From Mesorhizobium sp. M1D.F.Ca.ET.043.01.1.1 (GTDB taxonomy: Bacteria; Pseudomonadota; Alphaproteobacteria; Rhizobiales; Rhizobiaceae): a stretch of DNA of 64,000 bases. Made by a program: the position numbers and the translations under genes. The stretch covers positions 1-64,000 of the forward strand of contig NZ_CP034444.1 in assembly GCF_003952385.1 (NCBI RefSeq), in the 5' to 3' direction. Under the pieces are notes generated by a model. It worked only from the letters and a program-made list of their open reading frames with translations, was not told the origin of the DNA and ran no database searches. Below, in pieces: positions 40,173 through 47,410 of the stretch; the first letter of the stretch is position 1, and each line of letters starts with the position of its first letter.

Positions 40173-40700
40173 TCAGCCCTTTTCGACCTGTCCGAATTCA
40201 AGATCGACGGGCACCGCGCGCCCGAAGATCGAAACTTCCACCTTGAGGCGCGCCCGCTCCTCGTCCACTTCCTGGACGAAGCCGTTGAAGGATGCGAACG
40301 GACCGTCCGAGACGCGGATCGCCTCGCCGATCTCGAAGGTGACCGAGGGCTTCGGCCGCTCGACGCCTTCCTGCACCTGGTTCAGGATGCGCTGCGCCTC
40401 GGTTTCGGTGATCGGCACCGGCTTGGAATCGCCCAGGAAGCCGGTGACCTTCGGCGTGTTTTTGACCAGCGAGAACACGGCGTCCGTCAGGTTGGCCTTC
40501 AGAAGCACATAGCCCGGGAAGAACTTGCGCTCGGCATCGACCTTGCGGCCACGGCGGATCTCGACGACCTTCTCGGTCGGCACCACGATCTGCTCGATCT
40601 CACCGGACAGGCCCTTCTGCTTGGCCTTGTTCTCGATGTCCTCGGCGACCTTCTTCTCGAAGTTCGAATAAGCGTGGACGATGTACCAGCGCGCAGTCAT
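40173..40700 (-). CDS. nusG: Transcription termination/antitermination factor NusG
   Basis: NusG binds RNA polymerase and links it to Rho or to the ribosome through S10. The 175 residues comprise the NGN domain (RWYIVHAYSNFEKKVAEDIE, FFPGYVLLKANLTDAVFSLV) and the C-terminal KOW domain (IRVSDGPFASFNGFVQEVDE). Lies 27 bases downstream of secE. Confidence 0.98.
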   Translation of the reverse strand: MTARWYIVHAYSNFEKKVAEDIENKAKQKGLSGEIEQIVVPTEKVVEIRRGRKVDAERKFFPGYVLLKANLTDAVFSLVKNTPKVTGFLGDSKPVPITETEAQRILNQVQEGVERPKPSVTFEIGEAIRVSDGPFASFNGFVQEVDEERARLKVEVSIFGRAVPVDLEFGQVEKG

Positions 40701-41404: not shown

Positions 41405-41914
41405 TCAAGTGCCCATTTGAGGCGTGTCGGCCGGAAGTGGCGGTCGCAGCCATCCAAGCCACAAGGCCCAGGCGCATATCACGAGTTCAAGCCCGAAGGT
41501 CCAGTGCAGCATGAAGCTGAGCACCCAGTTCCCATACCTGGCGGGGACGGCCACGAGCTCAACGGGATGATGACTGAACGGCGCCAGCCACATGATCGGC
41601 GATGCCACCGTGTCGAGCGCCATATGCAACACGGCTCCGGCAAAGAAGGCGGCGATCGAAGGCTGATGCGGCAAACCGAGCAACCGACTGACCAGCAGGC
41701 TTACCGCTCCGATCGCCGCCCAGAACAACGGCCAATGCGTGACGTAGGCGTGATGGTGGGTGCGACCGCCATCGATCAGGTGAAAATAGAGCATGTCGAT
41801 GTCCGGGATGACGCTGCCGAGCATCGCGGCAGCCACGATGCCGGACGCTTTGCGCCAGCGTTTTCGCGCGAATCTTCCCAGAATATAGCCCGACGGGAGA
41901 TGGGCGATCAGCAT
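41405..41914 (-). CDS. YdjM-like metal-dependent hydrolase family membrane protein
   Basis: 169 residues from the ATG at 41914, with GAGG nine bases upstream. His-rich motifs alternate with membrane segments: MLIAHLPSGYILGRF, GSVIPDIDMLYFHL, RTHHHAYVTHWPLFW, FAGAVLHMALDTVASPIMW and FSHHPVEL. This arrangement fits the YdjM (DUF457-type) family of inner-membrane proteins annotated as metal-dependent hydrolases. The E. coli member belongs to the SOS regulon, but I see no LexA site here. The activity is unproven for the family. It lies between the haemoglobin gene and tRNA-Trp, on the same strand. Confidence 0.75.
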   Translation of the reverse strand: MLIAHLPSGYILGRFARKRWRKASGIVAAAMLGSVIPDIDMLYFHLIDGGRTHHHAYVTHWPLFWAAIGAVSLLVSRLLGLPHQPSIAAFFAGAVLHMALDTVASPIMWLAPFSHHPVELVAVPARYGNWVLSFMLHWTFGLELVICAWALWLGWLRPPLPADTPQMGT

Positions 41915-42002
41915 GCAAGGTCGCCTCACGTTGATGCAACGACCCTGCCGTTTCTTTGCGGCGTCATCTTTTCGGAATTTTGCAGAAACCCAGCATCTTC
42001 CG

Positions 42003-42488
42003 CTACGACTTCCCGGCCGGCGGCCTGTAAGGCCCGCCCGGCACACCCCAGCCCCAGGCGGGCATCGGTTCGGTCTCCGGGTCGCAGGTCTCGCCTAGAT
42101 TGGAATTCAGCTTGGCCAGCCGCGATCCCCATTCGACATAGCCCATGAAGGCGGAACGGAATTCGGGATCGTCGGGCAGGCCGACCTCGTCCGCCGCATC
42201 GGCGAGAAGATTGATCCAGCGCCGGCGCTGCTCCTCGGTCAGGTGCTTGCCGAGATGGTGCATGACCATCTCGCGGTGGCCGCCATGCTTTTCGCTGTAG
42301 GTCTTTGGTCCGCCGAAGACCTCAGCGATGAAGGCGGCGACATGCGCCGGATGATCCGGCGACATGTGCCTGAACACCGGGCCGACGATCGGATCCACAG
42401 CCACCTTGTCGTAGAAAGTCCGCGTCAGGCGGTTGAGCGCCTCTGCACCACCGGCCCATTCGAACAAAGTCGGGATATCCTCGCTCAT
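42003..42488 (-). CDS. Truncated haemoglobin (group II)
   Basis: 161 residues of the 2-on-2 globin fold, which binds haem and usually O2 or NO. Seen are TLFEWAGGAEALNRLTRTFY (helices A/B), PIVGPVFRHMSPDHPAHVAA, the proximal-His region KHGGHREMVMHHLGKHLTEE, and a Trp at the G8-like position in GYVEWGSRLA. The start ATG at 42488 has GGAAGGATC upstream. A Pro/Gly/Trp-rich tail (MPAWGWGVPGGPYRPP) follows the globin core, as in several rhizobial members. No partner reductase is nearby. Confidence 0.88.
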   Translation of the reverse strand: MSEDIPTLFEWAGGAEALNRLTRTFYDKVAVDPIVGPVFRHMSPDHPAHVAAFIAEVFGGPKTYSEKHGGHREMVMHHLGKHLTEEQRRRWINLLADAADEVGLPDDPEFRSAFMGYVEWGSRLAKLNSNLGETCDPETEPMPAWGWGVPGGPYRPPAGKS

Positions 42489-42588: not shown

Positions 42589-44265
42589 CTACAGCTTCGC
42601 CGGAGCCTCCGCCTCGGCATTGGCCGACGGCAGAAGCCGGCAGTTGTCGGGCTTGGGCGACGATTTGCAGACAGTGGCGCCGGTCAGCGCGTCCACCGAT
42701 TGCGGCCCGGTCGTCAGCCCGAATTTCTGCAATTCGTCCCGGCTGAGTTCCCGGTGGCTCGCATACTGGGCTGACTGCATCGCGGCGAACAGGCCCGGGC
42801 CGATGGCCATCTCGTCGAGATACGCCCTGACCTTTTCCTCCATGCCCATCGAGTGCACCCGGAAATGCGCGTCGGCACCAACCAAGCGCCTGGCGCCGCC
42901 GGCGACCATCACCGCGCAGGCGGCGTCGCATTCGGCGCCTGCATCGACGGTGAGGCCGTCATGGGGTCCGTCCTTAACGATGCATCCCGCCGCGCCGGGA
43001 TCGCAGTCGAGAAAGTCCGTGCGGGCCACCGCGACATCCAGCCTGCGCTCGCGGATCAGCCGGCCGGCGGCGAGCGCGCCTTGTATGTCGCCGCCCGGTG
43101 AATTGACGACGATGGGCAGCCTGCGCCCGCCGACCGTGTCCAGCAATTCGCGCAGCCTGTCGGGCGTAGCCGCAACAATCGTCCCCTCTGCCGCAATCCA
43201 TTCCGGGCAGTCGGGGTTGCAGAGCGGATTGGTGCCGCGAACCAGCACGAAGCGCATCTCCTGTTCCGACCTGGAGGGCAATGCGGCCCCTGTCGGTTGA
43301 GCAGAGGCCGGCTTGACCTCGACCGATGCGACCTCGGCCGGTCTGGCATTGCCGTTCGTCGGTATCTCGCGACAGTTCGCCGGCACGGGACCGTGCCGGC
43401 AGATGGTCTTTCCGGTCATCAGGTCCAGCGAATCGAGGCTGGTGACAAGCTTCATCTCCAGCATGTCGTCGGGCCCGATCTGCCTGATGTCGCTCGCGGG
43501 CGTCGCCTTCATCACGTCCAGCACGTCCTGGTCGACACCCATTTCCTTCAAATAGCCGGACAGCCGCTTCTCGACCGCCTTGCTCATCTCATAGGTCTTG
43601 TAGCTGCCGGCGTTCCGGCGGCTGACGATCCTGGTGCTGAGGACTTTCTTCTTGCCGTTCACGACCTTGTAGGTGGTGCGGTAGAGCAGCTTTTCCCTGT
43701 GGTACGTGGTGGTGATCTGGTGGACGCCGAGAAAGGCCCACTCGCCGACCACGCGGCGGAGGCCGCCGGCAAACATCAGCGGACAGGCCGAGTTGCACAT
43801 GGCGCCGCTGTCATAGGCGACGCCGGCATAGGGCGTGTTTTTGCTTTCATTGTCCCGGCAGTTCTTCATCTCGGGCGAGCAACCGGAAAACTCCGTCGTG
43901 CCGACGGCGATGTCGAGCTTGTTCTTGCGGATCATGCGGCCGAGCTGGAGCGCGGCGTCGACATTGCCGCCCGGGGAATTGACGACGATCGGCAGCTGCC
44001 GGCCGCCTAGCGTCTTCAGCAGGCGCCTGAGGAGCGCCGGCGTTCCGGCTTCGATAGTGCCTTCCGCCGAAATCCATTCCGGGCAATTGGGCTCGCAGCC
44101 CGGCGCGCTATTGCGCACAACGGCAAAGCGCATGGTCGGGCCGAGATCGGGCGCCTCTTCCTTGGCGCTCGCGGCGAAGCCGGCCAGGCCGACCGCAGCG
44201 GCCAGCGCCAGCCTGATCAGCCCGCGCCACCATTGAATGCTGTCTGAACCGCGTTCCGGAACCAC
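42589..44265 (-). CDS. Secreted protein with two tandem ClpP-fold (COG3904-type) domains
   Basis: About 558 residues. The start is uncertain: GTG 44265 has GAGGGG upstream, while a TTG at 44289 is also open. An N-terminal signal peptide (LIRLALAAAVGLAGFAASA) is followed by two homologous domains of about 240 residues. Each begins with a C-x3-CPEW motif (CEPNCPEWISAEG, CNPDCPEWIAAEG) and has the ClpP-like oxyanion loop VVNSPGG. Domain 1 has the Ser of AMCNSACPLMFAGG and the His of FLGVHQITTTY, aligning with the ClpP nucleophile and His. Domain 2 has Ala in place of the Ser (AECDAACAVMVAGG) but keeps a His (FRVHSMG). Probably a periplasmic peptidase or pseudo-peptidase; function unknown. Confidence 0.8.
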   Translation of the reverse strand: MVPERGSDSIQWWRGLIRLALAAAVGLAGFAASAKEEAPDLGPTMRFAVVRNSAPGCEPNCPEWISAEGTIEAGTPALLRRLLKTLGGRQLPIVVNSPGGNVDAALQLGRMIRKNKLDIAVGTTEFSGCSPEMKNCRDNESKNTPYAGVAYDSGAMCNSACPLMFAGGLRRVVGEWAFLGVHQITTTYHREKLLYRTTYKVVNGKKKVLSTRIVSRRNAGSYKTYEMSKAVEKRLSGYLKEMGVDQDVLDVMKATPASDIRQIGPDDMLEMKLVTSLDSLDLMTGKTICRHGPVPANCREIPTNGNARPAEVASVEVKPASAQPTGAALPSRSEQEMRFVLVRGTNPLCNPDCPEWIAAEGTIVAATPDRLRELLDTVGGRRLPIVVNSPGGDIQGALAAGRLIRERRLDVAVARTDFLDCDPGAAGCIVKDGPHDGLTVDAGAECDAACAVMVAGGARRLVGADAHFRVHSMGMEEKVRAYLDEMAIGPGLFAAMQSAQYASHRELSRDELQKFGLTTGPQSVDALTGATVCKSSPKPDNCRLLPSANAEAEAPAKL

Positions 44266-44285: not shown

Positions 44286-44303
44286 ACAACTCATACTAGT
44301 TGC
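44286..44303. repeat. Inverted repeat upstream of the first ClpP-like gene
   Basis: ACAAC and GTTGC flank TCATACTA. The same arrangement occurs upstream of the broken paralogue at 46092-46109. It overlaps a possible -10 (minus strand TAGTATGA), so it may be a promoter/operator retained from the gene duplication. It also overlaps the alternative TTG start. Confidence 0.5.
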
Positions 44304-44426: not shown

Positions 44427-46069
44427 TTAGAGCTCCGGTGGCGCGTTCGCCTCCGCACTGGCGGCCGGCGGCAGCCGGCAGTTGTCCGGCTTGGGCGCTG
44501 ATTTGCAGATGGTGGGGCCCGTCAGCGCATCCGCCGACTCCGGCCCGGTCGCCAGTCCGACTTTGAGCATCATGTCTGGTTCGAGCCGGCGCTCGACCGA
44601 GCTCTGCTCCATCGCGGCGAACAGGCCTGGGTTGATCGCCATCTCGTCCAGATAGGCTTTAACGACCCTCTTCTGACCCATCGAGGACACGCTGAGCCGC
44701 GCCTTGGGATTGACCAGTCGCTTGGCGCCGGCGGCGAGCACGAGCGCGCAGGCTGAATCGCACTCCACTCCAAACTGGCTTATCAGTCCGACATAGGCAC
44801 CGTTGTCGTCCAGGCAACCTGCTCCGGGCGGGTTGCAGCCCAAAACATTGGTCCGGCCGACGACGACGTCGAGCTTCCGCTCATGGACAAGCCGCCCCGC
44901 TGCCAAAGCGCCGAACAAGTCGCCGCCTCGCGAACTGATGACAATGGGAAGCCGCGGATTGCCGAGCGCTGCGAGCAGCCGGCGAAGCCTTTGCGGAGTT
45001 TGAGGCGTGATCGCGCCTTCCGCCGAGATCCATTCCGGGCAGTCGGGATCGCAGAGCGGATCGCTGCCGCGAACGACCACGAAGCGCATCTCAGGCGCCG
45101 CGTTTCCTGCCGCTCCCTGGAATGGTTCGACGGCCGGAGCCTTGGCCGACTGAGAAATTGGGACTTCAGCCTGTTGGCGAGGTGCCGGCTTTGCCGTTGT
45201 TAGGGGGGCCAGCCGGGTATCCTTCGATATTTCACGGCAATTTGGAGCCGCTTTGTCCCCCATGCACAGGGTTACTGCGGTAAACAGGTCCACGGTGTCC
45301 GTGCTGGTTGCCAGTTTGATCGTCAGCATATCGTGGAGGGTGATCTGCTGAATGTCGCTCGCCGGCGTGGCCTTCATTTTGTCGAGTACACCCTGCCCCA
45401 CGCCCATCTCCCTGAGATAGGCCGAGATTTTCCGCGCGAACCGCTTGCTCATCTCATAGGTCTTGTAGCTCTCGCCTTCGGTGACGGTCTCCGTCGTGAC
45501 GCGATATCTTTTGCCTCGGATCGTTTGATAGGTGGTTCGAAAATGCCTTGTAGAGGGGAAATAAGTGGTGGTGATCTGATGAACGCCCAGATAGGCCAAG
45601 CCACCGGCGACGCGGCGAACGCCACCCGCGAACATCAGCGGACAAGCGGAATTGCACATTGCGCCGCCATCCGACGCGACGCCGACATAGGCGGCACCTT
45701 CGCCATCGTTGGCCCGGCAATCGTCCATTCCTGGCTGGCAATCGGAAAACTTTGGTGACGCCAACGGCAACATCGAGCTTATTGTTGCGAATTATCCGAC
45801 CAAGCTGGAGCGCCGCGTCGACATTGCCGCCAGGAGAGTTGACGATGATCGGCAGTTGGCGCCGACCCAGCGTCTTCAATATACGCTTGAGTTTGGCCGG
45901 CGTGCCGGGCTCGATGGCACCTTCGGCCGAAATCCATTCCGGACAATCGGGTCGGAGATGTCGCCAGCCCTCGCGGCGAAAGCAGCCATCGTCATCGCAA
46001 GCACCGGCAGCAGGCGAACCAGCCCACGCCACAACGCTGCTGTATTGTTTAAACGCACTCCGAAATCAC
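44427..46069 (-). pseudogene. Broken tandem paralogue of the double ClpP-fold protein
   Basis: Signal-peptide-like sequence (GLVRLLPVLAMTMAAFAARA) is in one frame; DCPEWISAEGAIEPG to VDAALQLGRIIRNNKLDVAV is in another. From about 45757 (KFSDCQPGMDDC) the first frame resumes to the end. Against the first copy, about 61 bases are missing around 45950 and one base is extra near 45757. The two changes nearly cancel, but a stop at 45876 in the signal-peptide frame interrupts the gene. Domain 1 keeps MCNSACPLMFAGG and GVHQITTTY. Domain 2 keeps its Ser (VECDSACALVLAAG) but has Ser instead of His (LSVSSMG). An internal start could still give a 448-residue product lacking a signal peptide. Confidence 0.8.

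Positions 46070-46234: not shown

Positions 46235-47410
<1,176 letters not shown>

Follow-up and report, generated by a model that had tools for sequence, protein, structure and literature searches.

A putative exported serine hydrolase of Mesorhizobium with one conserved and one degenerate ClpP-fold domain

We analysed a window of 64,000 nucleotides (contig NZ_CP034444.1, positions 1 to 64,000) of Mesorhizobium sp. M1D.F.Ca.ET.043.01.1.1, whose genome measures 7.13 Mb and whose named close relatives are Mesorhizobium. Between tuf and nusG, all on the minus strand, lies a gene for a two-domain protein (Table 1). A first-pass annotation had described the product as a secreted double ClpP-fold protein with one active-looking and one dead-looking domain. 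Our analysis confirms this observation and supports its interpretation in part. The reading frame starting with GTG that it reported is present. Counted from the TTG the frame has 566 codons, but the GTG, which is preceded by GAGGGG, is the likelier start. We consider it probable that the gene encodes a serine hydrolase that is exported and most likely acts as a peptidase, with the fold of ClpP, SppA and the NfeD-type proteases, in which a live domain 1 and a pseudo-subunit, domain 2, form a covalent pseudo-dimer.

Table 1. Features of the two-domain gene and its surroundings, in window coordinates (dN/dS, ratio of nonsynonymous to synonymous substitution rates; pLDDT, predicted local distance difference test score)
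Feature	Coordinates	Strand	Basis or remark
Two-domain protein gene	42589..44265	minus	GTG start at 44265; frame open to TTG at 44289
Signal-peptide-like N-terminus, residues 9-42	44164..44265	minus	hydropathy; putative cut after ASA
Domain 1, residues 53-310, predicted ClpP fold, Ser-His pair kept	43360..44133	minus	conservation and model
Ser167, presumed nucleophile, within C165-N-S-A-C169	43789..43791	minus	79/79 and 121/121
His190, presumed base	43720..43722	minus	79/79 and 121/121
Long beta hairpin after His190, residues 194-232, absent from domain 2	43594..43710	minus	model strands 194-210, 213-232
Variable linker, residues 311-343	43261..43359	minus	median dN/dS 0.601; pLDDT <50 at 312-339
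Domain 2, residues 345-552, predicted ClpP fold, Ser-His pair broken, no hairpin	42634..43257	minus	alignments, spacing count, model
Ala456 at Ser position of domain 2	42922..42924	minus	
His479 at His position of domain 2	42853..42855	minus	
tuf (EF-Tu)	46235..47410	minus	upstream flank of locus
Upstream tandem paralogue, broken	44430..46040	minus	open pieces in different frames
Bacterial-like globin gene	42003..42488	minus	downstream flank; Bac_globin 57.2 bits
nusG	40173..40700	minus	part of the tuf-globin-nusG site

The N-terminus carries a hydrophobic stretch (residues 24-38, 44176-44220) followed by ASA and resembles a Sec signal peptide, in line with the secreted protein of the first-pass annotation. 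Beyond residue 50, every 15-residue stretch stays at or below 1.33 on the Kyte-Doolittle scale. The protein would accordingly be exported, and its signal-like N-terminus argues against a cytosolic Clp ATPase partner. Both motifs named by the first-pass annotation are exact in both domains, C-x3-CPEW with C65/C69 and C357/C361, and NSPGG at residues 104-108 and 396-400. The two domains share 54% identity over about 140 residues, far beyond chance. Structure prediction gave a ClpP fold for each of them, and Foldseek ranked 1510-N, the NfeD-type stomatin protease of Pyrococcus (PH1510), first and SppA fourth; the predicted model agrees with the suggested kinship with ClpP or SppA.

At the sequence level, the full protein matched no solved structure at an expectation value (E) of 10, and a profile built from one of our alignments (A5, 70 rows) recovered only four ClpP sequences (E 0.15-0.83). 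The Pfam model CLP_protease (PF00574) scored 15.2 bits on the window protein, below its cut-off of 20.2, and matched 4 members of a diverse set (A2, 23 rows, 31-45% identity to domain 1 of the window) at E 0.01 or better, the best at 5.2e-6. NfeD1b_N (PF25145) likewise stayed below its cut-off (18.4 versus 40 bits); Peptidase_S49 (PF01343) did not match at E 1 or below, and comparing profiles with an S49 protein encoded in this genome revealed no similarity either. ClpP (S14) has the fold, NSPGG and HQ in common with the two-domain protein, which differs by its signal-like N-terminus, by the lack of the Asp, and by its paired Cys motifs, which are missing from this genome's own ClpP. The match to E. 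coli SppA (E 2.7e-5) extends over 578 columns and thus covers both domains. The SppA chain holds two such domains, and its Ser-Lys site is shared between the halves. 1510-N has the same protease-domain fold but is itself membrane-bound and carries a Ser-Lys dyad, unlike the soluble Ser-His protein that we propose.

Conservation was followed in three collections. An alignment of 121 rows comprises the window protein and 120 matches listed of 593. A set of 79 full proteins draws on 78 of the 80 named loci, each represented by its best copy, as the other two gave no full double-domain frame; the 80 are the best of 216 loci encoding a relative and lean to close kin. A wider census covers 193 doubles and 149 single rows; it merges identical proteins and omits domain matches gapped at 40 or more of 142 columns. 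Several of the single rows are cut pieces of doubles. Ser167 and His190, which align with the ClpP catalytic pair and had been noted as kept, occur together in 79/79, 121/121 and, in the census, 193/193 first domains. The pair is also present in 22/23 of the diverse set A2, where L037 has lost both residues (L037 and P0230 of a 146-row motif set look like one protein), and in 19/20 more distant proteins, where L183 has lost both. These 20 (L180-L199), alphaproteobacterial and other proteins, all have the GG loop and CxSxC, with the His in 19; on visual inspection, the N-terminal Cys pair is missing from roughly half of them.

The position of the ClpP Asp is taken by Ile268 in the ClpP alignment, Ile in 121/121 rows and Ile, Met, Leu or Val in 74/74 (alignment A4), 70/70 (A5) and 23/23 (A2). 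Therefore, if the protein is an enzyme, it would use Ser and His without the usual acid, or a lysine of the hairpin. The latter option describes a Ser-Lys enzyme like 1510-N, with the same fold and a live domain 1, in which a hairpin Lys (213-215) would act as base and His190 would have a structural role. The first rank of 1510-N and the fourth of SppA in Foldseek speak for it, and so does the 1510-N pair itself, Ser97-Lys138, whose Lys lies at a loop base (PMC3795559). Residue 214 is Lys in 69/74 (A4) and 61/70 (A5) rows and Arg in the remainder. In A2, however, it is Lys in only 12/23 and Lys or Arg in 16/23, versus 22/23 for His190, and of the distant members, 19/20 of which keep Ser and His, several lack a Lys after the His when inspected by eye. 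We regard a Ser-Lys mechanism as unlikely.

The same active site bears on the kind of chemistry. The protein might not be a peptidase, but an esterase, a thioesterase or a non-enzymatic binding protein on a ClpP/crotonase fold. Foldseek lists an enoyl-CoA hydratase (E 1e-4), the Ser-His pair is not completed by any acid, and one protein, P0235, has lost the His alone. The best fold matches are peptidases, however, and the conservation of Ser with His in A2 and the distant proteins, with both lost in L037 and L183, also speaks against it. We give the non-peptidase reading a slim chance and keep the peptidase as the preferred one.

Domain 2 presents a different picture. In the window it has Ala456 and His479, as the first-pass annotation stated. 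Across the 121 rows, residue 456 is Ala in 46, Ser in 72 and Thr in 3, and residue 479 is His in 70, Tyr in 32, Ser in 12, Gln in 4 and Gly in 3. The pair is lost in most orthologues; 24/121 rows have both residues. In the census 30/193 second domains have both, a figure less exact than the 10/79 from the full proteins, because residue 479 falls into an alignment gap in many of them. A further loss concerns the hairpin. From the second Cys of CxSxC to the YLxxMG helix we counted 70s of residues in 157/158 first domains and 30s in 155/156 second domains, among the domains where both patterns were found. This shortening indicates that the hairpin modelled at 194-232 is gone from domain 2.

Such losses could mean that domain 2 is merely degenerating after a duplication, without function and incidentally fused. 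The Ser-His pair has indeed changed many times, with at least 9 changes at 456 and at least 10 at 479 on a tree of the 79 full proteins with both columns masked; forms without domain 2 exist (L087, L172), and the neighbouring paralogue is visibly decaying. However, the median dN/dS is equally low in the two domains, 0.220 in domain 2 and 0.256 in domain 1 (1571 pairs each), and 0.601 in the linker (1489 pairs; all pairs limited to dS 0.1-0.8). The Gly residues of its GG loop are kept in 120/121 and 121/121 rows. Its eight Cys are equally stable, and separate genes for the dead domain remain coupled to those for the live one with hydrophobic N-termini kept (see below). We thus think plain degeneration very doubtful. 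A low dN/dS despite a mostly lost site argues that the domain is being kept and, judged by these sequence measures, domain 2 is a kept pseudo-subunit without the hairpin, its pair lost in most orthologues.

The protein has 16 Cys, eight in each domain and none elsewhere. In domain 1 the full set of eight is conserved across 121/121 rows; in domain 2 six are kept in 121/121 and two (C436, C550) in 120/121. In a mixed set with recognised motif, the N-terminal stretch holds 0 or 2 Cys in 142/146 rows, and the stretch just ahead of CxSxC holds 0 or 2 in 145/146 (one of 147 rows was dropped for want of a recognised motif, though a later pattern reads it). Such paired counts are as expected of local disulfides. 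The CxSxC pair is kept in 20/20 distant proteins, including several where no N-terminal pair could be seen by eye, and hence may bond to itself around the nucleophile. A Cys nucleophile was considered and set aside, because C454 and C458 are kept in 121/121 second domains, most of them without the Ser-His pair.

The relation of the two halves is illustrated by loci in which they are separate genes. Three genomes (loci L151, L153 and L171) have two genes, A and B, at the tuf-globin-nusG site. The A genes have Ser, His and the long segment, whereas in the B genes the pair is broken and the segment is shorter, with 37 residues in both of those that were measured. All six carry a hydrophobic N-terminus, with a best 15-residue Kyte-Doolittle mean of 1.95-2.69. 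The B start overlaps the A stop (ATGA) in two of the three loci and lies 4 nt past it in the third. This tight linkage suggests that live and dead halves work as a pair. At L173 a fused form occupies the same site, and its second domain groups with the B genes (94/88). In a second tree, the B genes and all second domains stand apart in the best topology; a single clade of them was not rejected (approximately unbiased test, p-AU 0.417), which is no proof of one, and B and the Mesorhizobium second domains may be one lineage.

In a tree of 117 domains the Mesorhizobium second domains cluster with their counterparts in P0123 and P0133 (support 99/98), while the second domains of non-genus loci (L030, L032-L034, L038, L039) and of P0121 are placed elsewhere. 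A single origin of all 38 second domains was rejected (p-AU 0.012, constrained tree), in a test with long branches, 142 columns and a group chosen after the tree was seen. Eight of eight second domains listed for non-Mesorhizobium loci and for the proteins of a second search lack the Ser-His pair. Under these caveats, doubles with one active and one dead domain thus appear to have had more than one origin. Two odd frames were also seen. The tail of the lone live-domain frame at L172 (6256-6474) resembles the C-terminus of the window globin (35.6% across its residues 138-201, E 2.9e-7), a likeness that a deletion fusing the two genes could explain. At L052, an 802-residue frame holds a relative behind what appear by eye to be tetratricopeptide repeats.

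Several observations weigh against a peptidase that depends on a dead partner. Within the genus, L087 matches only residues 4-314, domain 1 without domain 2, and L172 has a lone A gene, the live domain alone; single-domain proteins occur in 17/23 non-genus loci read, so a partner is not always needed. Both Ser and His persist in 10/79 second domains of the best copies. P0235, with Ser but no His, shows that joint loss is not strict, and an acid is missing at the ClpP Asp position, so that the standard triad is absent. The placement of the two domains relative to each other is unsure (predicted template modelling score, pTM, 0.52), and Foldseek root-mean-square deviations are large on the whole model. 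Finally, the rows are related, and the counts are not independent events.

We nevertheless favour an exported hydrolase with one live and one dead half. The analysis shows the predicted fold, the conservation, the selection and the split gene form, from which export, catalysis, a peptide substrate and contact of the domains are inferred. Domain 1 would hold the only dependable active site: Ser167 would be the nucleophile, His190 the base, and the GG of NSPGG the oxyanion loop, with the long hairpin lying over the substrate groove. Domain 2 probably gives the second face of a substrate tunnel, or holds domain 1 in a working assembly. Mixed ClpP rings with inactive ClpR subunits have active and inactive subunits as their design. 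The 1510-N dimer binds one pseudo-palindromic peptide with a single cut point, and product was undetected after deletion of its loop L2 (PMC3795559). By analogy, a chain that joins a live domain to a dead one without the hairpin would have this kind of single-cut dimer built into it. More speculatively, and with less than even confidence, we propose that in this bacterial order exported peptidases with the ClpP fold have evolved, time and again, a live subunit paired with a pseudo-subunit that has no hairpin, as coupled genes or in one chain. Through the dead half, a homodimer with two sites would become a machine with a single site, which makes one cut in one bound chain, and a CxSxC disulfide around the nucleophile would tie the active site to the oxidising periplasm. 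If true, the concept of a catalytically dead partner with the ClpP fold, for which ClpR is the example, would come to include a soluble system in the periplasm. The apparent same pair exists in one-gene and two-gene versions, which makes the role of the pseudo-subunit testable in cis and in trans.

Orthologues with 79-86% identity and the same two-domain length, among the matches listed, bear the uncharacterised UniRef/NCBI label COG3904. No function is attached to it, and many relatives outside the genus are single-domain. In the literature searched, the accessible text mentioned COG3904 in one paper only, a Vibrio genome study with the gene in a table, and a functional study of a COG3904-type family was not found; neither were the two-domain live/dead form, the hairpin loss, the repeated origin and the split form. 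The family name itself already exists. Any relative, not the two-domain gene alone, was found in 106/119 genomes of the genus at E 1e-5 and, with another query, in 130/146 at E 1e-20, a wide presence for a functionally blank family. In the order it was found in 115/397 at E 1e-4 (domain 1 query), and in the phylum in 45/398 at E 1e-6.

Among the 80 named loci the flanks are tuf in 59, globin in 75 and nusG in 67, numbers limited by contig ends, and a second copy of the gene was visible by reading in 15. In the window, domain 2 of the broken tandem paralogue has the Ser kept and a Ser at the His position; second copies are intact in other Mesorhizobium. A functional link to the globin was considered and dropped, since this flank is common together with tuf and nusG. 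In 20 wider regions around relatives, globin occurred only in the two same-genus ones, and recurring neighbours were common to at most 4 loci each, mostly of one family. A gene for a YdjM-like membrane protein (41405-42046, minus strand, 48.1 bits) adjoins the globin gene; found in 18/80 named loci, it seems to come and go at the tuf-globin-nusG site.
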